DNA of 64,000 nt from Phellopilus nigrolimitatus (Eukaryota; Basidiomycota; Agaricomycetes; Hymenochaetales; Hymenochaetaceae), in contig JAJOHG010000020.1 of the NCBI GenBank assembly GCA_021029095.1, positions 558,001-622,000 on the forward strand, written 5' to 3'. The position numbers and the translations under genes are program-made. Of this stretch, positions 1-26,531 are shown piece after piece; within the stretch, counting starts at the first letter, position 1; each line of letters begins with the position of its first letter. A model generated the notes under the pieces. That model did not search any database. It was not told where the DNA came from and was given only the letters and a program-made list of their open reading frames with translations.

Positions 1-3000
1 GCCCGCGCTCGCTTCGCGAACCACGCTGTGCAGCGTCAGCCCGTCCAGCGGGGGGACCTGGCCATTCGGGCCGACCGACACGCCCGAGAGGCTGTTCGGC
101 GAGGATGGGCCCGAGACGGGGTGCGAGAGCATGCCGCCCGCGCCGACGAGGCGCACCTCATCAGTCGCGTCGTCCGCCTCCCCATATCCGTATCCGTACC
201 CACTCCCGTACCCATACTCGTACCCGTATCCATAGTCGCCGTACTCCGAGCCGCCATCCTCAATCTCGCCGTACAGGTTCGCGCCGTAGCCGTAGTCGAA
301 GCCGTATTCCTCACCAACATCGCCCCAGCTCGCCGCGCGCATCGCGCTCGTCAGCTCGTCCGCGCTCTTCAGCGCGAGTCCCGAGCTCCCGACGGCGGAG
401 CCCGAGCCCGCACGCGCACCCATGCCGCCCGCCGGGGCGCGCCCCGTGCTGACGCCGAGCCCCACGCGCCCGTTGCCAAACTCGTCCGCGCTCCGCCGCG
501 CGAGGCGCCGCGTCGCGAAGCTCGAGCGCGCGGAGCTGCTCGCGGGCGACACCGTGCCGCGCTTGCTCTTCCGGCCGCTGCTCCCGCCGCTGCTGCCCTC
601 GCCGAGGCTCGTGAGCGACGCGCGCGGGCGCCAGTTGAAGATCCGCGAGAGCGAGAGGCGCGCAGGTCGCGCGCGCGCGCGCCTTGTGCTCCTTCTCCCA
701 TTCCTGGCTCGCCTGCGACTCCTCCAGAGCCTGACGCTCGTATACTGCACGCTCGTCGTCCTCGTCAAGGATGTCGATGTCCCCGTCGCCGTCGGACGTA
801 AACCCCGCTGTGCTCGGGCTCGTGAGGTTCGAGCGCGAGCCGCTCATGGCGCGCGGCGTCGCTTTGCCAGACGCACGCGAGGCAGGGCGCGAGCGCGAGC
901 CGCACGAGCGGGAGAGCGAGTGTTCGCGCACAATCCCGTCCATCACGAGGTCCGGCAGCGTGCGGCGCTTCATGCTCCGCGGCGTGTCCGCGCCGCCGTA
1001 TATGTTGCTAGCGATCTTCTTCACGCCGCTTTTCACACCGCGATCGACGGCATCGACGACGCGCCTGCCGCGGCTGGGCCGGCGCTGGAGGCGCGCCTTC
1101 CGCGACGGTGACGGGCGCTTTCTTGCTTATAAACGAAAGCGGGGTGCTCGACCTCGCCGCGCCGGGTTCCTGTGCGTACGCAACCTCCTCGGGATCCGCA
1201 AAGCTCCTGTTCGCGTCGGCATTCGCGTACTGCTTCTTGTGCTTGAACGGCACAGCCGGGATGTACTTGCGCAGGCGCTCCCAGCGGAACTTGACGGTGG
1301 ACATCGCGACGTCCTCGTCGGCGGAGGTAACGTCAATCGGGTCGTGCAGGCACGGCGACGTCTCCGCGAGCCAGGCCTCGGGATTCGGGATGTCGCGCGT
1401 AATCCAGGGCAGGCTCTGCAACAAGTAATATTTAATTTAGTTAGTCTTCGTTCTTCCTTCTTTCGTAGACAAAACATGGAATGGAAATGGAAGTAACGAA
1501 GAACGTAATGATGAAGACATAAAAGAGAGGGGGGATGATGGGGGAAGGCGTTCTGCACGCACCTTGACCTCGTCCAGTGTGATCCGCTTCGAGCAGTCCT
1601 TCTCCAGCAACCTTTCTAACAAACTGCACCACGATGCCGCCCTCGGTGTCATCGTCCGGCACATGCACGCGCCCGCCAGTGTGCACCTTGTCGTACCCCA
1701 TCGTGCCGTCCACAAGGAAGTCCTCCGTGTGTATCATGTGGTACATCGCGAACTCCGTGCCACCGCTCCACGGTGTGCGCCCAAAGAGCAGACAGAAGAG
1801 CGTCACACCGAGCGCCCACACGTCGATCGCCTTTGTAATTGGCGGGCGCGCCGGCCACGAGGCGTCGCTGTCCTCGTCGGCAGCGGCAGCGGCTGCGACG
1901 TTAGGGTCGAGAAAGGAAGAGGGGTCCGGGTCGGGGATGGTCGATTGCGTCTCGCCGAGATGTACGTTCTCGCGGTCGGGTGCTTCCTCAGGCGGCAGGT
2001 TCCCGGGTGGGCGGGGTGTTAGTCTCGTCGTCTACATGCGCGGGTCGTCGCGGCGTATTCACTGTCGGGGCCTTATCCATATCTGCGCCGTCTCTCCCAG
2101 TCACTGTCGATAACCGCTTTTCTCGTGCTCGCACCCTCGTTCCCAGTCTGCTCCGCCTCCGACGAGCGACCCGCCCCCATCTTCTTCATCAGCGCCGCGG
2201 TGCGCTCCGCTCCGAACTCCCATATAATTTCGGGCGCGAGGAAGCTCGGCGTACCCGCCTGGCGCGATAGTCCGCCGTCGTCGAGGAGAATCGGGTCGAG
2301 GGAGCCGACGAGCGACGCAAGGACTTCGGCCTCCACCGCAGCATCTTCAGGCGGCGGTAGTGAGGCGGATGCGACGCTCGAAACGAGAACGCTGGTCGAA
2401 GCAGCAGCAGACTCGTCCTGCGCACGTCCTTTCCCCTTCTCCTTAATCTCATCCCTGCTCCCCTTCCCGCGCCAGCCGCCCATCCTCTTCCTCGGCGTCT
2501 CCTGCTCCTTCTTGCGGCGGTCTTTCTTGCGCCGCTCGAGCGCCTCGCGGTACGCGTTGCTGTGCCTGAGCGCGTCGATGCGCTGGGCGGCACTGAAGTG
2601 CGACACGCCGAAGTCCGTGATCTTGACGTTCTTCCGGTCGGCGGTCCACAGAAGGTTGGCGGGTTTGATGTCGCGGTGGACGATGCCCTGGTGGTGGAGA
2701 TACTCGAGGCCGAGCACGACGTCGCGGCAGATGCGGCGGGTCTGGTCGACGCGCAGACACGGCCGGCCGTTGCTGTCCCGCCACTTGACCTCGCCGCCGC
2801 CCATATACTCCATAACGAGCAGGATCTTGGACATGAGCCGGTCGTTGATGACCTCGTAGAGCTGCACTATCTGGCCGTGCTTGCATTTCTTCATGATGGC
2901 GATCTCGCGGAGGACCTTCTTCTCGGTGTTCTGGAGCTGATCGACGAGGCGTGGGCGCGTGCCGAAACCGCCGTTGGAGCGCGGGATGGCACCCTGGTTC

Positions 3001-3566
3001 CGCTGGCGCAGCTGTTCCTGCTTCGCCTCTTTAGGGTTCTTGCGCTTGCACGCCTTGATCGCCTGCAGCAGCAACGTCATAATGCATTCAGTTATTCACA
3101 GCACGAAACAGGACGAGAAACAGGGGACGCACCACGATGAGATTCTCCCTCCTGATATCGAAGCCCTTGTAGACTTCGCCGTGCTGGCCGTTTCCGAGGC
3201 GGTGGCCGATGAGGTACTGGTTGATGACGGTGTGGTTGTTCTGGGTGTCGCGCACGACGTTGATTGTGCTGGTCATGACGACGTCGGTCGGCGGGTGGGC
3301 CGAGGCGAGGGCAAAGGCGTGCTGGACGCGGGGCCGGCGCCGGGAGTAGGGGGAGCGAACATGGGAGAGCGGGAGCGGGAGTGGGCAGCCGGGCCGTGGT
3401 GCGTGACGAGGTAGGGCGCATACGGGCTCGGGCACCTGTTGTTGTGCGGGCCCTGTTGGGCGTGCATGGAGGCGGAGGAGGCGGCGCCGGAGGAGTAGGC
3501 GCGGTAGGGGCTGGTGGGGGGATGTTGGAAATGGTGATGTGCGTGCGGAGGGGACATGGCGTGCAT
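1..3566 (-). CDS. CaMKK-type serine/threonine protein kinase, 3' end outside the window
   Basis: Upstream kinase of the Snf1/AMPK pathway by family (CaMKK; Ssp1 and Elm1/Sak1/Tos3 group). Visible in order: a His/Pro/Ser-rich N-terminus (ATG at 3566), glycine loop LGNGQHGEVYKG near 3170, an intron, AIK lysine at about 3060, HRDIKPANLLW near 2690-2660, DFG in KITDFGVSHFS near 2620, TPSFLAPEI near 2240 and WALGVTLFCLLFGRTPW near 1810. The CaMKK signature GGRVHVPDDDTEGG lies near 1660-1630. The C-terminal tail is Ser/Gly/Tyr-rich and stays open to base 1. About 110 basic and Ser-rich residues are inserted between DFG and APE. Between 2140 and 1986 an intron with a CTAAC branch site, or two compensating frameshifts, must be assumed. 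One-base breaks are seen at about 1621, 1111 and 680. The kinase may instead start at MTSTINVV (3275), because the upstream frame stops on that ATG. Confidence 0.85.
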
Positions 3567-8531: not shown

Positions 8532-9784
<1,253 letters not shown>

Positions 9785-10836: not shown

Positions 10837-13800
10837 CTAATCCAATGAGGTCGGGTGGTCGGCATCGGGAGGGAAGCGCAGGCGAGCAAGGAGCACACTG
10901 TCCCAAGGACGCGACGGTAGCACTTCCGATACTTTGCTCGCCGCAGCGTGCTGGCCAGGCACGTCTTCATGGTAAGAGGGACCGGCAGCAGCCACCGTCT
11001 CGGTGTCGATCGAGAAGGCGCCCCATTTTTGTCCTGGCCTCGGAGGAGCAAAGACATTAAAGTGGACTTGCCCATCAGGGTTGTTGTGGTTCACGAAGAG
11101 ACCGTAATCTGGAGCGTCAAGAGTGCCGATGACTGGTAGTGAAAAATTAATAAGATATCGGGACAGATTGGACACAACGACTCGCCCAAGTATACGTCTT
11201 CCTTTTGCAAGCGATGTTCCTTTCCATATAGTGTCAGAATGCGTTCGATATTTGCCTCAAACCACTTTTTAGGTGTGTATAGGTCATCGACGTATCGATA
11301 CATCATCGTTTCGACATACAAATACGCGCTCTTATGCCTTGCCCGAATGGGAAAAGAAACACGACGACTGACATTTTGTCTAATTTGAGTGAATCTTTCA
11401 GTCTTGGCATTAAACTCTGATAAATGGGGAGATGTAAACTGACTGAAAGTCTCCTGAGGTCCTGCTGCGGAACCACAGCAGCCCTTGTATGGTATCCAAG
11501 CTACGTTGAGCTATGGTACGCCTGTCCTGGCGCTGGCTTCCCTTCGTGACCTTTCCATAGCCATAAAGGTTCGACATGCCGTCTGCTTTACCGCCTGACG
11601 ACTTCGGCGGGTCAAAAGCATTAAAGAGAGTGACAAACGAGCCGCTGGGACGTGAAAGGTATCCGACAGCTCCCAAGGCAACAGGTGAGGGAGCCCAAAG
11701 AGGCAGAGTCACTATCACGATGGTGAGAACGAACAGAAAGGTAAATGACGACGTATTATGACGTACGGGTCGGATGAAAGTTGTGTTGCAAATGCAATCT
11801 GTAGCGGCTCTCATTTTTGCGCTGCGCAATTTGCTCGTCCGCAGGAGGAGGCGATTCTACGCGCTCCAGTTCGAGCTCAAGTCCAGGACCGTTTCCATAC
11901 GAGCCAGCACTTGTGCCCGTAGATCCAGTACGCGACGACGAGGTAGATTCATTCGTGGGAGTTGCGCCTTCCGACTTGCTCCGCATACGCTCATCCCTGG
12001 CCTGAAGGTCATCGGGAAAAGCTTTGAGGAATCCGGAAGCTTTGGGGGTTCGGGAAACTTGACTGGTTTGTATTCGACTGGAGATGCACCGTTGCTCCCT
12101 GGCTGCTTGTCCTCTTCACGGATAGGCGTGATGATTCGCTGCATGGGAATACCACCAGGAGAGAGCGATGTCGGCCGGAGGGATGGTGATGAGGGTCCTG
12201 GACTTGAACTAGCAGACGTTGACCGGCGTGAAATGTGCCGACGCTCATCGGACCCATCTGGAAGCGTGTAAAGATACAATAGGCAGTGAAGGAAGGTGTT
12301 AAAACATACCGATTGGTAGCTCAACAGGCTTCATATCGGGTGAATGTCTTCGTATCGAATCCTCGTTGAAAAGCTCGGCTTTCCCTCCCAAAGACGGCGA
12401 ATCGGTGTATTTACTTAAGCCTTGTTTCCTGAGTTCACGAATTATTTTTTGGAACGTTGGTCTGGATGATGCATCGCGAGCCCAGCATGATTCAATAACG
12501 GCCAGAATACCTTTGGAGGCGTTAACGGACGTGATAGGAGGGCGCTTATTTTCTTCTATAAACGAATGTTAGATGACAAATTGAATATAAACGAACCAGA
12601 CTTGCCAAGGACGAGACGGCGATATGATTCATCGTCTATCATGTTCCATGGGAGAACGCCCTCTGCAAAAATTTCTACGCAAACAATTGCAAAAGCATAT
12701 ATGTCGACTTGATATGTGAGACGGCCAGATGAAAACCCGTCGATAATCTCAGGTGCTTGCCAGCGTAATGTACCTCCTGCAGAGACTATCGTAAGCCAGG
12801 CGTTGACGGACTTTCAATAAACACTTAGAGCTCACGGGGAGGATGGCTTCCGCTTAAACGATAAGCTTCACTCTTCATTTCGCTCTGACCGAAATCTGTA
12901 ATGACGCAATGTTTATTATCATCAATTAGCACATTAGTTCCCTGCCGTCGACTGAATAAGCGCAATAAAACAATGAAGTAAATCTGCCCCACCTTCAGGT
13001 CGCCATGCATGACACCTTGCCGATGCAGATAAGCCATGCCCTTCGCTATCTCGTACACCATTTTCCGCTGGATAGCACCTTCAACGGGCTTCTTCATTGC
13101 GCGCAGGTAGTCGACGAGGTTGCCATTTTTCATGTACGGACTAACAAAGAACCATGGCGGGTCGCCCGTCGCCGAGCTCGCACCCAGGAGTGTATGCACA
13201 TGCGGGTGCTCTAGCGCCTTCCACACAGTCATCTCGTGGATGAAGATCTTCTGCGGAGTCGATAGCGCGAGCACCTTGACCGCAACGGTATGGTTCCGCC
13301 ACGTTGCGCGATATACGTCGGAAAAATAGCCAAAGCCGATCTTCTCCTCCAGGTCGATCTCGTATCTACTTTGCGTCAGCGTTCATGCCCGTTAAAAAAG
13401 TATAGCAATGCATACCGAGTTATTGTCCAGCTAGGCAAATTGAGCATTTGTCCTTTGCTCAAACGCCTCAACGCGTCGATCCCGGTTTCGATGAATTCCC
13501 GATCGAGTGTATCCCGTTCCCCTTTAGCGGACAAACCACTTGTACGCCATTCATACTTCTTCCCGCTCTTTCTACTGCCCTTCGACTTGACGCTGTCTAC
13601 TGTCAGGCGCCTTCGCAAACCACCGAACCCGAGCGGACCCGATCCCTGCTTTCCCTCTACCTCTGCGCCACCTTCCCCGACAGCTTCCCCGTTGTTTACC
13701 TCCACATCTTGCACGTTGAGCTCCAGCTCGGCGGTCTCCTCCTTCTCGCGCTCTTTCTCGAGCGCGCGCTGTAGCGTTTTGATCGCCTCGGGCATCTCTT

Positions 13801-15428
13801 CGCGGTTGATCTGCAGCACACGGAGCATTTCCGCATCGCTTGACGTCGCAAGCGCCGCACGCATCAGCCCTCGCAAATCCGCAGTGTCGAGGGCGTGGTC
13901 AAGTTGGTTCTGCTGCTGCACGAGTGCAACGAGCTCCTTGCGGATTTCGTCAGGCGTGGGCGGCGAGTGGAGCGTCGTCTGGGAAGCATTCGGCAGGATA
14001 GCGGCGTCCGAATCAGGAGTGGGCGGCGGTGACTGCACGGTCTCCTGCGCCGGAGCGCCGGAGCTCCCTGTCGTAGTCGTTTTTGCTCCCGAACTTGTGT
14101 CAGTCGTTTCAGTGCCGCCTGAGCTGGTCGTTGAATACGCCGGCGGAGACCCGCTCGGGGGAAGTGCAATAGGCTTCTGTTTCGGGGTCGTGTCAACTTG
14201 AGAAGGTCGCGCAGAGAGCGAGGCAATGAGTCGCTCTGTGTCTGCATTTCTCTTTGCTTCCGCGGCCTGGAGCTGGCGCAGAGTGCGAATCTGTATGGAA
14301 ATCTGTCTTACTGTTAGCGGACATATCTAAAGGATGAGAGTGATTAGGCGAATCTGTACCGAAAACAAGCCCAGAGCATCATTTAAGGCAACGTCGCAGA
14401 AACCGATGCTCCGCAGAATGTCATCGCGCTTCAGATACCGCTTGAGGAAAGGGCGATGGACTTGCTTTTGGAGCAAAATGTGCACAGCCTTGAATGATCT
14501 AAACGCGAGCACAAACGTTAAGATTTATATATGAGAAATAAATAAAATTTCGGAGCTTACTCAGTGAGTTTTAGGAGTGGCATTGTCAACTCTTCCCCAA
14601 CTTGATCTCCTGCCTCGTAGATCTCCTGGCGCACAGAAAAAAGAATGTCGGCACATCGTCCGGTGAGCCTCAAGCACGCAAGTCTGTTCGTCTGTGTACC
14701 AAACCATATTATAAGAAGAGCTGAAAAAGGATAGGGACACAATTACCTCCACGAGCTGCAGTGACTCCCAAATGGTCAACAAGACGCGCGCTGCTTCTTC
14801 CAGACCCGGGATGGGTGCAAAACGGAGACCTTCGGCACTTATTTCCAGCACATCATGCGCTACGTCTAGACTGTATCCAAGCGTGCTTCGTATAGCAAGA
14901 TAGACGCGCTACATACGATTTTAGTCATTAATAAGAATAAAAGACGACTAAATGTCGAAATTAAGATCGGACCAGAATAGTTACGACCGCTTTGCAATCT
15001 CACGACACACGAAACAACCACGATCTTTCCAACGTGGGTATAAAGAGCGATACCTTTGTTTTGTGCTTTGAAAAGAAAGGGGCTAATGTCCAAAGGCTCC
15101 ATCGGGATGGCAGTCGCATCTATTCTGGTCGAACACTCGAAAATAACACACTTACCTCCCTGGTACTTGTCCACCTCTCGGACTGCTCGGGAGGTACGCT
15201 GCCCTTCCTCAGAAGCGCTGGTTTGTCTCGCCATGGTCTGGAAACATCACGCGAACCCCACCAGCCTGTCGGTTCGTAGGTCGGTGCTTCCGCCTCCACC
15301 CTCGCAAGTTCAGCCTTGGTTGGGTATTCGGACATGACTGACGGAAATTGTCCGCGTGGTGAAAAGCGTATTTCAGACGGCTCCGAGCTAGCGGAGACCG
15401 TGTTTTGGAGCGAGCCTGCGTCCGACAT
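10837..15428 (-). CDS. Gene A: MLKL-like protein kinase with N-terminal helical bundle and conserved C-terminal module
   Basis: Multi-exon gene of roughly 1100 residues. The N-terminus has a short acidic, Pro-containing head with GWW (15428-15240). It is followed by four helical exons (about 14910-14350) that include LLTIWESLQLVE, RLTGRCADILFSVRQEI and RPFLKRYLKRDDILRSIGFC. This pattern resembles the MLKL/HeLo-like bundle of fungal cell-death proteins. A Ser/Thr/Pro and Glu-rich linker follows (14290-13420). The kinase domain runs from about 13380 to 12420: GFGYFSDVY glycine loop, VAVK lysine, MHGDLK...N catalytic loop (HGD for HRD, split by an intron at about 12990-12940), ITDFGQSE and RWQAPEIIDG. 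A disordered linker leads to the C-terminal module from LTLPLWAPSP near 11725, through SAYLYVETMMYRYVDD and GTLDAPDYGLFVNHN, to the stop at 10837. The joins of the first exons are unresolved. The function (kinase-driven membrane or cell-death signalling) is inferred from domain order. Confidence 0.75.
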
Positions 15429-16044: not shown

Positions 16045-17315
16045 CTACCACCACACCACTCCCTTCATTAAGCGCCTACCTGTGCGTACCACTTTTGCAC
16101 TCTTCACAGCCCCCATGCCATCAAATTCAGCGCCCACATCGACTTCCCCAGATGGATGTCTAATTCTAATAAGGTCACTCAAGACTTTTCCTTGCCATTC
16201 CCCAGCTCGAGTGCTCCTAGGCCTGGACCCCTTGACGATGTCCCATGCCAATGTGCCCTCAGTGCGCGCGGCGACACCAAGGCACAGACCGACCGTCATT
16301 GGGATCGCTTTGTGGAGAATGCCCATCGAGAACGCATGCGCCATGACGTGTACCGCTGTGTCCTCAGGGAGAGCATTCGCGCTTTGCGAATAACGCGGTG
16401 CGCTCAGCACAGCGATCTTGGGCTGCGCCTTTGCTAACGCGTCAAGCCCCATCGCACGCGCGCCGCTCTGTCGGATATCTTCAATGCACTCCTCCACTTT
16501 AGGGTCCGCGAAGTTTATTTCGAAGGGATCGGGGGCACGCAAATTATCGACTAGGTCTTCAGATCTAATAAAGACCGTAGGGTTGGTTGCGTCGACTAGC
16601 GAGGCTCTGATAGTGCGTGCTTCGCCTCTATGAGAAAATGACAACACGTCTACCGGTTTTCCCGAAGGAAGAAGCTTTCCAGTCCTCGCTCCCGCTGGGG
16701 AGACAAAATCAAGGTCAATGCGGGACGCCTCCCCTCAACGCCCGCGATGGTCGTTTGGGGAAGATCAAGGACGGCTACATTCCCATTCCCCGACGCTATA
16801 GGGAAGGTGGTATCAATGCACTTGTTGGTGTTCGTGTTGAATGAGCGCACCACGCCGACGCCCGGGTTCGCTGCAAAACGTTGGGGCGCACACAAACCCT
16901 CGTCAACGGCGAACACGCCAATCATACTAGATAGATTCCCGCAGTTCCCAGAATAGTCAAGACTTGCTTCCTTTATACCGACCTGGCAGAAAGTGTACTC
17001 GATGTCGATGCCTACTGCGGATTGTGCATCGGAAGGCACACCAACGACGCAGATCTTGGACAAGCTGGACACCCCACCCCCCATTCCATTTAGCTGGCGG
17101 CCATACACGGGGTCCGGAGACCCCATTATTCTGAGAAAAATGGATGACCACTCTGCACGGTCTTTTGGTAGAAGGCTACGTTGGATGTATACGCCTTTGG
17201 ATGTCCCTCCTCGAAGAAATGTAGCTGGCAAAGGATTCGGGACTGTAAAAAGTGACATAGATCGCAGACTGACACCCGACATCCGCCAGGAACCCTTTTT
17301 TGCTGTGTTGAGCAT
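16045..17315 (-). CDS. PrpF-family isomerase (DUF453)
   Basis: PrpF proteins isomerise or tautomerise unsaturated tricarboxylates such as methylaconitate and 4-oxalomesaconate, without cofactor. Seen from the N-terminus: LPATFLRGGTSKGVYI, NGMGGGVSSLSKICVV, DYSGNCGNLSSMIG with the family cysteine, then IDLDFVSPAGARTGKLLPSG, DATNPTVF, PKIAVLSAPRYS, AVHVMAHAFSMGILHKAIPM and IRHPSGEVDVGAEFDG, to the stop at 16045. The ATG at 17315 gives a basic N-terminal extension; MSLFTVPNPLP at 17258 fits the usual family start. A one-base gap near 16720 breaks the frame between GVEGRRPA and IDLDFVSP, although both sides are clearly PrpF. No introns are evident. The gene sits between genes A and B, with no evident functional link to them. 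Confidence 0.88.
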
Positions 17316-17525
17316 ATTTAAAAGCGAGCTGAGCGTTTGACTCTTTGAGGAAGACGCAAAGTCGGAAACCCAGTGCACCTGTTTTGGGGAATAGCACCTC
17401 AAAACGGAAGCACTCCGGTGGCAACATGCTTGACTGACTTCAGATGATAATTCTTTTGTACACTTTTACTTCTACATACGCTGCAAAAGTTTACGAAACC
17501 CGGGCTCACAACTAAAAATACAGAT

Positions 17526-20500
17526 CTATAATGAACGTCTCCTACTTGCCAGCCTTCTCGTCTCCGGCGCAGGTTCCTGATAGGATGGCTCCGGGTCATG
17601 GGCATCCTTACTATGAAATTGCAAACATCCAAGAAGAACACTATTCCAGCTTTCCTGCAACGCGACATCTGATACCTTGAAAGACGAGTTAGGCCTGTCA
17701 TTTGCATTTGCAATTTCTTTCTGTGTTGGTTTCTTATTTGTCCGTTTCTGAGATTTCAGATCAGAATCTATTGAAAAGGTGCCCCATTTTTTTCCAGGTG
17801 TCCTTTTCTTAAAAACATTGAATAGCATCTAGTATAATATTTAGCTTCGTTGTTTTAGATATTATCAATATTATTAGAGGATTACCTGTCCTTTGGGCTC
17901 AGAATGATTAATTATAAGACCAAATTCTGGTGTTTTTAAAGTACCTGTAACTATATTGCACATATAAGTTAAGGATTAAGAGCCTGAGATCTATGCTCCA
18001 AACTCACCCAAGATAAGCTTCTCTTTACTCAAGTTGACATGCTCTCTTTGATAGTGCTTAAGAATATTGTCAATGTTTTGCTTGAGCCATAGCTTTGCGT
18101 AGTTGTGGTTTTCAAGATATTTGTATTGATATCTCTCAAGATAAATGTGTGCACTCTTGCCAGCAGTTGTGACTGGAAACTTATGGACTCTCTGCATCCT
18201 TCCCCTATGAACTAATTTAATGCTCACTCATGTCTGTTTTGCATGGTAATTTGACTTACTGAAAGTCACCAATCTTGTTGCTGTGGAATGATAAGGTGTT
18301 GCATAAGCTTTGAAGGGTATGCTGTACAAATATTGGTCTTTGGAGAATTTCTTTCCCTTGTTTGCTTTCTTGTAGTGGCCTAAACTCTTTTGACACATTG
18401 TTTGCAGTGAATGCATTGAAAAGTCTGATGAATGAGCCATCTGAAGCTGACACATATCCTACATCTGCTATTTCAGCAGGAGATGGAGTCCAAAGAGGTA
18501 GTGTTACTATGATATGCTGATTCAGCAGTCAGCTGCAGAAGGCCCTGAGAGGTCACTTACACAGGAAATTGAAACCATGCTGCAGTGTTGTTCTATATGC
18601 CACTGCATCTTGATGCATCTGTTTCATTTCATATTGAGAGAAATGTCTCTTCAGCTCAGTCAATTCAATGTCATTTGCATTTGCATGCTGAGCTGCTGCT
18701 TTGGTCATTGTCAAGTGTGTGCCTAATTTGCTTTTGGACCTTCCACTACTTGGGGATGAGATGCCAGAGTTTTCCAACTCTGTATGGAAAGGTGTGATTA
18801 AATTCTGCTTAGGAATGCCATCATCTACTAATAGGCAGATTGTGAATAAAAAAACCAGCTGGGTAATAATAGTTGCCATACAAGATTCTTCTGAAATGAT
18901 GCCAGTGAGTAAAGCTGAGTCATATAATTTTTGTGATAAAATCTAAAGCACTCACTGCTTGATTTAGAATCATGAGGTTTTTGTTTGTTTCCAAGTTGGA
19001 GATCCTCCAGAAACTCAATTACACCCTCAATGAGTTTCAAATTAAGTTCATTTGCCTGTTCTTTGCTAGCTCCCTGAGGGGATTTTGCCTTTCTCTCATT
19101 CAATTCCTTCTGTTTGAGCAAATGATCTCTTGCATTCTGTAATTCCCTCACTTTAGCTGGAATTTCTTCCAATTTTACACCTAGTTTGTTCATGATATTT
19201 GGATCTTCAGGTTGTTTCAGTAGCCTTTGAAACTCTGTATAAAGGTGTTGCTCTTGTTCCAAGTCAATCTGAGAGGCAGATTCTTTCTGACTTGCTCGCC
19301 AGTGCTCTATCATGATAAGAGCAAGTTCATTGATCCTTTTTTTCTCTTCAGGTGTTAGTCTCCTGGTTATACCGTCTGAAGAATGTGTATTTGAAGTTTT
19401 CTGTAAGCCTTTCTGGGAAGTCTGTGTGCTAACATCTGCATATTTCTTCCTATTAGAACCAACAGCTTTTGCTGCTAAAGCCGAATGCCCTTGACCCTGA
19501 TGAGTGATATCATGTATAGTTTTCAGTATTTCTTCCTTATCTGCGTCCCATTTTGATGTAAGATGAGCTACTTCATCTTTGACACCACTATCGAGCCGTT
19601 TTAAAAGAACAGCATTGATAGCAGCCTCAATATGACTTTCAAGCAGGTCCTTGAGTGCAGTCTTATTTTCTAATGGTCTTGTTGAGTTTTCTATAGTGAT
19701 GGCAAGAATCCGAATCAGAACCCGAGTCTGCACAAGTCACAAAATATAGTCAGACGTGATTTGGTACAGGTTACTAGTAAAGCTTACCTCAAACTCCTTA
19801 ACTGCACGATCAAGCTTTCCGCCACATCCGTCAAGTTCATCCTTGATGTCTTTGCGCTTGATCAGACGGTCTATATACGGTCTATGTTTCTGTTGGAGTA
19901 GAGCCTCATTTACTTCTTTAAAGATACTATACAAGTGTCAGGACGTGGCAACAGAGCTCAAAGAGCAATAGCAACATACTCTCTCACTCTTATGAGAGCT
20001 TCTTGGACGTGACCTTCTACAGGTTTGCCCTCACTTTGGACTATTTCGAGCAATGCCATGTATGCAACTTGGCAGCGTTCAATAAGGGAAACACATGATT
20101 CTTTGTTTGTCTGCGGTAATGGCTTAGCTGACTGTGGTTGCAGCTTGCTTTTACACGAACATACCTGGACAAATTGTAACGTGTCCACCATCCACAGCAA
20201 ACTCTGGGCGGCGGGTGCTATAAAGGTAACAGGAGCCAATCGCGTAGCAGATGTTGCAAGTTCAAGACTATCTTTGCCGATTTTGTTGACGTATTCAGCG
20301 CTTAATTGTGTGATTTTTTCAATTCTCTAAATCCACAGTCATTAGCGACAACATTACTTGAGAAAACGCTGTATGCGCATATTGCGCTGGAGAATGGACA
20401 TATAAGTTCAGACGCTACTTACACTTTTGAGAATTTCCATCCTTGTTTCTGCAGCCTCGGATGCTTGTTGATTCCTTCTCCTCCTTTCTTCCTTCGTGTT

Positions 20501-20863
20501 CTTTATCTTTGCCCACCAGCCAGCTGGTGGCGTAGTGAGATCGACCGAGCGACTCGCTGATGATCTTGAAGCAGTGTATATTGAAGGAAAGGACTCCCCC
20601 CTCCTGGCAGGCTCCTTAGCTGGATTGGGCGGAGGTTTACGAACTGATGCATTGTTCGTACGTGATACTGGCTTCGTGCTAGGCGAATGCCTCGGAGCAT
20701 GTTTTGAAAAATCAATTACCGTAAGTATGTCGCGATTGTCTTGATGTTGGCCTTCGGATGCCGTGCGGCTGGTGGAAGGATCGAGAGTGTTGGATCGCGG
20801 AGGTACGTTCTCGCGGGGTCGGTCTCCGATCGGCAGGGAGCCGGTACGTTTTATCGGCGCCAT
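17526..20863 (-). CDS. Gene B: kinase-less relative of gene A with helical N-terminus, coiled coil and shared C-terminal module
   Basis: The ATG at 20863 opens a basic, Ser/Pro-rich head (RTGSLPIGDRPRENVPP) with PPAGWWAKIKN near 20520. Then come helical exons: ATRLAPVTFIAPAAQSLLWM near 20230, ESCVSLIERCQVAYMALLEI near 20090, RPYIDRLIKRKDIKDELDGC near 19880 and RVLIRILAITIENS near 19720. They align in order with the helical bundle of gene C and, more loosely, of gene A. A long charged coiled-coil region fills about 19640-18960, where gene A has its kinase; no glycine loop, HRD or DFG is present. The C-terminal module resumes near 18500 (VTLPLWTPSPAEI, GSFIRLFNAF, KSAHIYLERYQYKYLEN, GTLKTPEFGLIINHS, KKWGTFSIDS, WNSVLLGCLQF) and ends at 17526. 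The 3' half is much more AT-rich than its neighbours. Exon ends are approximate. Possible adaptor, decoy or executor partner of gene A. Confidence 0.65.
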
Positions 20864-22558: not shown

Positions 22559-24037
22559 TCAGCTTGCTCCCATTTGTAATGCTTCATTCAGTGGGTTCAG
22601 TGACCTTATTGATTCTTGCTTTTTCATTTGGTGAATTGACTTTATTGATTCCTGCTTTTTCACTTGGTGAAGTGACCTTATTGATTCTTGCTTTTTCATT
22701 TGGTGAAGTGACTTTATTGAATCTTGCTTTTTCATTGGCTGGCTCGTGCAATTGCATTCCGGCTTCCCCTTTTGTGGAGTCTCGGGAAAAGATACTGAAA
22801 TTTGCACATTGCTATTATTATTCGGAACTGCTGTAGGATGTGCAGACTCTTCTTTAACACCACCCTTCGCTTGTTCTAGGAGAGCCTCCTTGATAACCTT
22901 GAGTTCGCCCTTAATTTCTAGTGTTCTGGCTGAATTGTCTATAGTGATTGCAAGAATCCGGACCAGGACTCGAGTCTACGCAAGTCATGAGATATAATCA
23001 GCGGCGTTTTGTTGCTGGCCACTGCTAAGTCGTACCTCAAATTCCTTGACTGCACGATCAAGTTTCGAGCCACATCCATCAAGTTCCTCTTTGATATCCT
23101 TGTATTTAATCAGACGTTCAATGTACCTCCTATGTTTTTGTTGTAGTAGAGCATCAGATACTTCTTGAAAGATGCTGTGCAGATTAGACAGCAGTTAGTA
23201 CGTGGTTACAATGTTCAAATAGCAATAGCGATATACTCTTTCACCCTTTCGATAGCATTTCGAACATGATCTTGTAAATGCTGGCCCTCGCTTTGGACTA
23301 TTTCAGACAATGACACATATGCGGCAACACAGCCTTCAATCAGAGAAATGCATGTTTCCTTGTTTATCTAGGGAAATTATCTGGCTGCAGAAGCGACTTG
23401 TGCTACACAAACATACCTGAACAAACTTCAAAATATCCACCATCCAAAGTAGCATTGAAGCAACGGGTGATAAAAAAACAATAGGAGCCATTCGCGTGGC
23501 AATTACTGCAACTTCAAGACCAGTATGGCTCATATGTTTGGCATAATCAGTCACAGGTTTTGTGACCATCACAACGTTCTAAATTCACAATCATTAATGG
23601 CTCGAAAGAAAAAATGGATGTAGGGTTGGATATGTAAGTTTGAATGCGTTGCTTACTTCTCTGAACTTTTCCATTCTCGTTTCTTCAATCTCGGACGCTT
23701 GCTGGTTCTTTCTCCTCCTATTTTCATTTGCGTTTTTTATCTTAGCCCACCAACCAGCTGGTGGAACATTGATTTCTGCCACAGAAGATCTGGAAACAGT
23801 ATTTACTGAAGATAAAGGCGATGCTTTATTTGTACGCGACGCTAGCCTCGTGCTAGGCGAATGCTTGGGAGCATATTTTGTAAAATCAATTACGCCGAAT
23901 AGTCTATGGTCGCCTTGATGCTGGCCCGCCGATTTTGTATGGCCGGAAGAGGGATCATACGTGCTAGATCGTAGAGGTCCATTCTCATGGGGTCGACTTC
24001 CGATCGGTAGGGAGCTCGCGCGCGTCGTCCGTACCAT
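22559..24037 (-). CDS. Gene C: truncated paralogue of gene B with a repeat tail
   Basis: Starts at 24037 with MVRTTRASSLPIGSRPHENG, matching the head of gene B nearly word for word, including the HSPSTR and PPAGWWAKIKN segments. Helical exons follow in the same order: ATRMAPIVFLSPVASMLLWM near 23490, ETCISLIEGC near 23350, RRYIERLIKYKDIKEELDGC near 23120 and RVLVRILAITIDNS near 22965. The protein then departs from B: a short linker ends in four 12-residue repeats (MKKQESIRSLHQ type, 22740-22601) and a stop at 22559. The coiled coil and C-terminal module are absent. The predicted length is about 370 residues. Splice phases match those of B. It may be a decoy or regulator made only of the bundle, or a degenerating copy. 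Confidence 0.65.
22601..22740 (-). repeat. Four in-frame 36-bp tandem repeats coding for a basic 12-residue unit
   Basis: Units start at 22601, 22637, 22673 and 22709, each 36 bp and differing by only a few bases. On the minus strand they encode MKKQDSIKSLHQ, MKKQESIRSLHQ, VKKQESIKSIHQ and MKKQESIRSLNP. The length is a multiple of three, so copy changes keep the frame. The unit is absent from genes A and B. Confidence 0.9.
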
Positions 24038-24893: not shown

Positions 24894-26531
24894 ATGGGCA
24901 GCGGTATCCTCTGCTGCTTTCCCGACCCTGTCGACTTCGATGCAGACGTTAATCTTTTCCACTTCGAGCTTCACAGAGCTATCGGCAAGGGTGCGTTCGG
25001 CAAGGTCAGTTTACAGAATGTCGATTGCTTCAATTTCTCTGTGTCTTATCGATCTATTTTTTTGGTCGCAGGTCCGTGTCGTTGAACACAAGCGGACAAA
25101 GAAACTCTACGCACTCAAGTATATCGACAAAGCACAATGTGTCAAGCAGAAGGCTGTCGCAAACATTATACAGGAACGCCAGCTACTCGAAGAGGTTTGC
25201 CCGCGTCCGCGTTCCTTTCATATGCATAATTGCTGATAGCCATTCAGGTCGACCACCCATTTGTAGTAAATCTTCGATATGCCTTCCAAGACGACGCGAA
25301 CTGTTTCTTTGCTTTGGACCTAATGTTGGGTGGGGACCTACGATGTGGGTACACCGTATCCGTGCCGTTCATTACAAGCTTGCTTACGGTCGTTAAGTCC
25401 ACCTCGAACGCAAAGGAGCGGTCGATGAACCCGCAGTGCGCTTCTGGGTAGCAGAGTTGTCGTCTGCCATATCGTACCTCCACAAGCAACGGATCATCCA
25501 TCGTGACCTCAAACCTGACAACATCCTGCTCGACACCATGGGTCATGCGCATATCACCGACTTCAACGTCGCTATCCACTTCTCATCCTCGCGGCTGCAC
25601 ACGTCTGTCGCTGGCTCGCTCGCATACATGGCTCCCGAGGTTTGCGGTCGCAAAGGCTACTCGTGGCAGGCCGACTGGTGGTCGCTTGGCGTCGTCGCCT
25701 ACGAGCTCCTCTTCGGCCGACGCCCATTCGAGGGTCGCTCTTCGGATGCACTCACTACCGCCATCGTCAAGGACCATGTGCGTTTCCCGGAGCGTGCTCC
25801 GCAGATATGCAGTCCCGATGGCATCAGCGCGCTCAGGCAGTTGCTCGAGCGAAATACGAAGAAGAGGCTCGGTTGCCAGACGGACAGTGACAGGGAGAGC
25901 ATGGACAGTGTCCGACGACATCCTTGGTTCGCGTCGATAGACTGGGCGTTGCTGGAAGGAAAGGATGCACAGCCCCCCTTCGTACCTGACGTGAGTTTAT
26001 TCATACCGTCGTGGAACTCGACTAATTCCTATATGCAGATGCGTAAAGCGAATTTCGATATTTCTCATGAACTTGACGAATTCCTTATGGTCGAAAAGCC
26101 ATTAACTGCTACGAAGCGAAAACAGAACGTCGACCTCGACAAATTGACGCCCGAGTATCGGCAGCTGGAAGAACAGTGCGGCGTCCATTACTTTCTTTGA
26201 CATTCCGTACTCATCGCACTTCAGATTTACGAACTTCGATTCCACGAGACCAAAACGTATGTCCTATTATCCGCATAATCAGCCGATTATGGCCGTGCCT
26301 CCGCAAGGTGACCTGGACGGGTGCGAGCCGTCGCTTGACATGGCGCGTAGCTCGTCACAGACCAACAACTCGCAGTCGCAGTCGCACTCGAACACGCTGG
26401 TTGTAGGCGAGGGCTCGCATGCAGGCTCCCCGCCGCAGTCGCCGACTACCGTCGTGGCGATGCCTACGCCACCGGACCGCGTAGTCATGCGCGTACCGCT
26501 GGGCGGCGACGGGTCAGTGGCGTCAGGTTGA
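24894..26531 (+). CDS. YANK/STK32-like serine/threonine protein kinase
   Basis: AGC-type kinase of the YANK (STK32) family; its physiological role in fungi is little known. The start MGSGILCCF at 24894 offers a glycine for N-myristoylation and two cysteines for palmitoylation, so plasma-membrane attachment is likely. Seen: GKGAFGKV glycine loop, YALKYIDK lysine, HPFVVNLRYAFQD, IIHRDLKPDNILLD, ITDFNVA (DFN in place of DFG, as in YANK kinases), AGSLAYMAPEV, DWWSLGVVAYELLFG and the AGC-like HPWFASIDW. Introns: 25005-25071, 25195-25247, 25345-25397, 25991-26038 and 26176-26224, all in phase. The last one gives EEQFTNFDSTRPKR and a Ser/Gln-rich tail. The gene converges on the PP1 inhibitor gene. 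Confidence 0.9.

Follow-up and report, generated by a model that had tools for sequence, protein, structure and literature searches.

In animals, MLKL and the gasdermins are the end effectors of separate lytic death pathways, the former controlled by phosphorylation and the latter usually by proteolysis. The machinery of somatic incompatibility and cell death in basidiomycetes is poorly known. Here we describe gene A, which lies in a 64,000-nucleotide stretch of DNA (the window) from Phellopilus nigrolimitatus (assembly GCA_021029095.1, contig JAJOHG010000020.1, positions 558,001 to 622,000 of the forward strand). Its product appears to join an MLKL-type helical bundle, a protein kinase and a gasdermin-like domain in one chain.

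Parts of this arrangement are known from fungi. MLKL-like domains are common among basidiomycete NLRs (PMC9815663). A single sentence in PMC12881547 mentions fungal proteins that combine a bundle with a kinase; it names no family, no conservation and no C-terminal gasdermin-like domain. Fungal gasdermins occur in protease-gasdermin gene pairs (PMC10197012, PMC12881547), and an S8 or CHAT protease gene is clustered with about 80% of them (PMC10197012). FslK are fungi-specific kinases related to tyrosine kinases (TK) and are expanded in Agaricomycetes (PMC3937382). Searches of the open-licence literature turned up no reported protein in which a gasdermin-like domain is joined with a kinase or an MLKL-type bundle.

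One gene with three conserved modules

Gene A (10837..15428) is on the minus strand, as are all of its features given below. Its ATG is at 15428 and its stop codon ends at 10837, the span and strand already assigned by a sequence-only reading of this DNA. We spliced the gene by hand, guided by donor and acceptor signals, into 14 exons with 13 introns. Exons 1-7 are at 15428-15156, 14908-14747, 14691-14561, 14498-14360, 14302-13416, 13365-12993 and 12941-12836; exons 8-14 are at 12776-12606, 12555-12310, 12257-12064, 12001-11767, 11711-11444, 11379-11186 and 11132-10837. The translation of 1224 amino acids (aa) has no residue differing from the annotated P. nigrolimitatus protein DFH11DRAFT_1606815 (P0001), the acceptor of intron 12 having been shifted by 12 nucleotides (nt) to agree with P0001 and the family consensus. 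Two introns, at 12605-12556 and 11185-11133, are of the GC-AG type; both are required for an open frame and agree with the annotated protein. Two alternative boundaries for intron 8 were dropped because of stop codons, while its GC-AG reading stays open, and a microexon within intron 1 was dropped because it disrupts the frame. When the 56-Mb assembly to which gene A belongs was searched in six frames, with 38 of 137 candidates scored, no second full copy was found.

When the whole protein was searched against 7993 scored candidates, 361 matched at E<=1e-3, so the gene A family exceeds chance. Family counts refer to the best 120 of these 361 matches (P0001 included), the other 119 of which were aligned with gene A. 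With a full-chain query and only the best 120 kept, this set leans to full-length members. The named homologues are basidiomycetes, which we take to be Agaricomycetes. At least 80% of the bundle was covered in 118/119 homologues, and the kinase and the C-terminal module reached the same coverage in all 119. Median identity to gene A was 0.58 for the bundle, 0.57 for the kinase and 0.57 for the C-terminal module. These data indicate that the three modules travel together.

Adjacent separate genes could in principle have been fused wrongly into one model, and the length of intron 1 (247 nt) speaks for such an artefact. Against it stand the match between our model and the annotated protein and the co-occurrence of the three modules in at least 118 of the 119 homologues. 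We consider wrong joining highly improbable. Gene A is a single intact gene, and the earlier description of these modules as one fungal protein is borne out by the splice model.

The chain begins with a poorly conserved extension (aa 1-90; 15159..15428) that carries a GWW motif at aa 55-57; 'WW' stands ahead of the bundle in 99 of the 120 sequences. About 90 residues precede the bundle in gene A, compared with a median of 165 across the 120 sequences, and six of these have fewer than 10. The MLKL-type helical domain follows at aa 91-262 (about 15158-14222) and comprises a putative extra N-terminal helical part and a four-helix bundle. Pairwise mapping places the four MLKL-equivalent helices at aa ~123-244 (about 14815-14276).

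For the bundle, 14 of 18 family slices were aligned together with two paralogues, genes B and C, which are described below. The Pfam profile MLKL_N matched 14 of 16 members at E<=1, with a best E of 2.2e-8. For gene A alone, the cut-out domain scored E 0.0026 and 17.7 bits, under the 27-bit Pfam cut-off, and the full-length scan gave E 0.32 and 10.9 bits. The profile check proposed for this bundle succeeded for the family and fell short for gene A by itself. A genome-wide MLKL_N search gave one sub-threshold match, on a different contig, and missed gene A, in which the bundle is divided among exons. In a PDB profile search, MLKL chains made up six of eight matches (E 0.58-1.3), with two other matches ranking above them; a single-sequence PDB search returned a lone chance match to a cell wall hydrolase.

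The bundle fold was modelled on a paralogue, P0121, rather than on gene A. The predicted structure is a helical bundle that aligns with about residues 1-122 of MLKL, the executioner domain, in line with the fold comparison that had been suggested. This model has a single long helix at 204-259 where MLKL has two, and its details are not trusted. Two helices, at 124-158 (predicted local distance difference test (pLDDT) 62-85) and 168-175 (pLDDT 44-59), lie ahead of the MLKL-aligned part. Judged by profile and predicted fold, the gene A bundle is a relative of the executioner domain of MLKL. The sequence-only reading was thus right to put an MLKL/HeLo-type bundle ahead of a kinase in one gene, and wrong to put it at the very N-terminus, where about 90 residues come first.

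A conserved middle region (aa 358-420; 13748..13936) lies in a brace-like position in the interval between bundle and kinase. It is covered to at least 80% in 119/119 homologues, with a median identity of 0.62.

The kinase (aa 535-789; 12431..13355) is of the TK/tyrosine kinase-like (TKL) type, with a match to PF07714 at E 4e-52. K561 (VAVK), E575 (alpha-C), D653 and N658 (HGDLK..N) and D671 (DFG) are invariant in 120/120 sequences, which extends to the whole set the three motifs noticed earlier in gene A. By eye, the kinase carries HGDLK(G/A)(T/A)N, GTLRWQAPE and NKRP motifs and lacks the TK-specific motifs given in PMC3937382. Its closest solved relatives, taken as the best 60 of 1430, were mostly ABL1 and Src, together with PTK6 and plant CTR1; neither MLKL nor RIPK was among these 60. 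The kinase had been described as TKL-type, and the TK/TKL resemblance stands; among these 60 relatives, it appears to resemble TK/TKL kinases rather than MLKL. With its catalytic residues intact, the kinase is apparently active. The linker that follows (aa 790-948; 11840..12430) has two conserved sites, S819-P820 and S944-P945. Position 819 is S/T in 120/120 sequences and 820 is P in 120/120; position 944 is S/T in 118/120 and 945 is P in 117/120.

The gasdermin-like C-terminal module

The last 276 residues (aa 949-1224; about 11839-10840) form a module that appears to fold like a gasdermin. This assignment comes from an AlphaFold2 model of a homologue, P0126 (pLDDT 90), compared with known structures by Foldseek and VIA. 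Gasdermins took ranks 1-16 in Foldseek and ranks 1-23 in VIA, followed by CDC/MACPF pore formers. The sequence-only reading had called the module conserved, which agrees with its coverage in 119/119 homologues, and had overlooked the gasdermin-like fold.

Alternatively, the module could be an unrelated domain that merely shares a general alpha/beta layout with gasdermins. Several results count for this explanation. The Foldseek template modelling scores were low. Pfam gave nothing for the module in gene A and two chance-level matches among 11 members, none of them to a gasdermin, and neither NCBIfam nor PADLOC gave a convincing profile match. A viral structure library returned nothing at E<=0.001. 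We regard an unrelated domain as improbable.

Profile searches were also made with family alignments. The C-terminal alignment held 10 of 18 family slices plus gene B, and a PDB profile search with the module gave two chance-level matches. Two fold alignments combined full-length proteins with short proteins bearing the gasdermin-like domain: one had 24 full-length and 21 of 43 short proteins, the other 55 of 119 full-length and four short proteins. With the first of these mixed alignments, the 60 PDB matches listed of 2798 were exclusively kinases. The gasdermin family PF04598 was not found in a search of the whole genome.

The short proteins bearing this domain number 43, and 38 of them come from jgi, lgn or ena sources solely. 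One of the short proteins, P0131 from Steccherinum ochraceum (260 aa), shares 98% identity with the final part of P0061, a full-length protein. Both are listed with a 35256-base contig and have neighbouring locus numbers, which may reflect a recent duplicate or an assembly effect.

Kinase-less paralogues and neighbouring genes

Gene B (17526..20863, minus strand) was built as a splice model with conceptual translation. It has 10 exons and encodes 905 aa with a bundle, a linker and a gasdermin-like domain, the last of these 38% identical to that of gene A, and no kinase. A reading of gene B with a hydrophobic segment was dropped, by our choice, for a 128-nt intron with the phase seen in gene A. 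Gene C (22559..24037, minus strand; splice model) has five exons and encodes 409 aa with a bundle and a repetitive tail, and no gasdermin-like domain. Near its end, at 22593-22736 (minus strand), are four copies of a 12-residue repeat resembling MKKQ(D/E)SI(K/R)SLHQ. Three further kinase-less copies without a gasdermin-like domain lie 110 kb away on the same contig (448577-461067 of the contig).

The three bundle exons measure 162, 131 and 139 nt in each of genes A, B and C. The three distant copies have exons of these lengths with proper splice sites, in a search that was preset to those lengths. When the genome was searched with gene B, the C-terminal module turned up in genes A and B only. 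The kinase-less paralogues thus show domain loss: gene B retains the gasdermin-like domain, and gene C and the three distant copies are without it. In ten pairwise comparisons among the five kinase-less copies, the ratio of nonsynonymous to synonymous substitution rates (dN/dS) of the bundle was 0.17-0.43; comparisons with gene A were saturated. By this measure, the bundle exons of the five paralogues are under purifying selection.

These paralogues raise the possibility of a two-part system, in which gene A would act mainly as a kinase and the five kinase-less proteins would be the effectors on which it acts, in the manner of RIPK3 and MLKL. Their presence on the gene A contig, their constrained bundles and the location of two of them upstream of gene A, at distances of about 2 and 7 kb, count for such a system. 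A protein search with gene C, limited to proteins of roughly 225-716 aa having short words in common with the query, returned four relatives, all from P. nigrolimitatus; one was an annotated piece of gene B (P0123, 251 aa), the sole form in which gene B appeared in this search. Since the paralogues were limited to one species in this search and gene A is widespread, they are unlikely to be general effectors of gene A, and we judge the two-part system quite improbable.

Between genes A and B is a PrpF-like gene (16045-17465, minus strand), and downstream of gene A is an alanine-racemase-N gene (8660-9784, plus strand), which is presumably YggS-like; both were identified by open reading frame (ORF) and Pfam. 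With these metabolic genes as flanks, there is no sign of a defence cluster around gene A. Among the best candidates scored in its own genome, none of 21 S8 protease matches and none of 28 CHAT protease matches lies on the gene A contig. The listed CHAT matches fall mostly (24/28) on four other contigs (C617, C212, C190 and C631), nearly all within long open frames. The window also holds a kinase ORF at 25397-26200 (plus strand), with a Pkinase match and an HRDLKPDN loop, and another at 2073-3095 (minus strand) with an HRDIKPAN loop.

A putative kinase-gated effector and its relation to known systems

What might such a protein do? Most likely, and with moderate confidence on our part, the gene A protein is a kinase-gated membrane effector that combines an MLKL/BaMLKL-type bundle with a C-terminal gasdermin-like domain. 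In the resting state, the kinase and linker would restrain the gasdermin-like domain. The kinase would be switched on by an upstream signal or by clustering through the bundle. Phosphorylation, either by the protein itself, perhaps at the linker S-P sites, or by a proline-directed kinase, would then release the C-terminal domain to bind a membrane and perforate or remodel it. The intact gene, its three modules, their conservation and the catalytic residues are observed; the folds of the end modules are predictions for relatives. From these we infer enzyme activity, autoinhibition, release on phosphorylation, membrane insertion, pore formation and cell death. The notion, put forward from the sequence, that a single chain serves as both sensor kinase and membrane-acting executor is a working hypothesis on the same footing.

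The strongest rival explanation is that the gene A protein is a non-lytic regulator, a conserved mushroom signalling kinase whose end modules have lost any killing function and now serve in oligomerisation, membrane binding or scaffolding, with development and the control of septa as possible settings. It ranks first among the rivals because fungal gasdermins are reported to follow a birth-and-death pattern, in contrast to the deep conservation of this protein and the failure to find a second copy. Points in favour of a non-lytic role are strong conservation along the entire chain, no second full copy or clustered protease found in the genome, the extension before the bundle and the invariant kinase residues. 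The proposal that some FslK kinases of Agaricomycetes are developmental (PMC3937382) also counts for it. However, the folds of both end modules are of classes known above all for membrane attack, and kinase-less paralogues made of these parts alone persist with bundle exons under purifying selection. We see a non-lytic regulator as a serious possibility that is somewhat doubtful. If it is correct, gene A would show both folds serving ordinary signalling.

A bolder form of the effector reading, which we think rather unlikely, is that gene A represents a conserved dual-executioner kinase of mushroom-forming fungi. An active kinase would hold both the MLKL-type bundle and a gasdermin-type pore domain under direct control, giving protease-independent, phosphorylation-gated pores and merging the machineries of necroptosis and pyroptosis, and kinase-less executioner copies would arise and be retained alongside. 

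If a kinase-gated effector is the right reading, a single molecule joins two cell-death machineries that animals have in separate proteins. A conserved chain of these three modules would in any case allow kinase gating of a gasdermin fold to be tested directly, and would supply a concrete candidate for the cell-death machinery of basidiomycetes.

How, then, does gene A compare with known systems? As in animal and plant MLKL, a bundle with MLKL_N similarity and a corresponding predicted fold precedes a kinase in one chain. MLKL consists of a four-helix bundle, a brace and a pseudokinase, whereas gene A has intact catalytic residues in a TK/TKL-like kinase, an N-terminal extension before the bundle and an additional gasdermin-like domain. 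Because its kinase is not a pseudokinase and a 90-residue extension precedes the bundle, the gene A protein is not MLKL. The BaMLKL, HeLo-like and Goodbye-like domains of fungal NLRs also have an MLKL-like bundle, which in basidiomycetes has one more helix on its N-terminal side (PMC9815663). In gene A, the bundle is instead chained to a kinase and a gasdermin-like domain, and a Pfam scan gave no NACHT or NB-ARC match in the protein.

The predicted fold of aa 949-1224 resembles that of RCD-1, HET-Q1, bGSDM and GSDMD. In the gasdermin arrangement, however, the pore domain is N-terminal with an inhibitor after it, whereas gene A has its domain at the C-terminal end of a chain that includes a kinase; gene A also differs in having no Pfam gasdermin match and no S8 or CHAT match on its contig. 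Like FslK, the kinase keeps its catalytic residues, lacks TK-diagnostic residues and has an Agaricomycetes distribution (PMC3937382). This likeness is one of motifs, and additional domains are reported in only 16 of 241 FslK members in that source. Fungal proteins with a HELL domain and a kinase or pseudokinase, like gene A, have bundle and kinase in one protein (PMC12881547). Bundle and kinase were thus known together before; what appears to be new here is their combination with a C-terminal module of predicted gasdermin-like fold.
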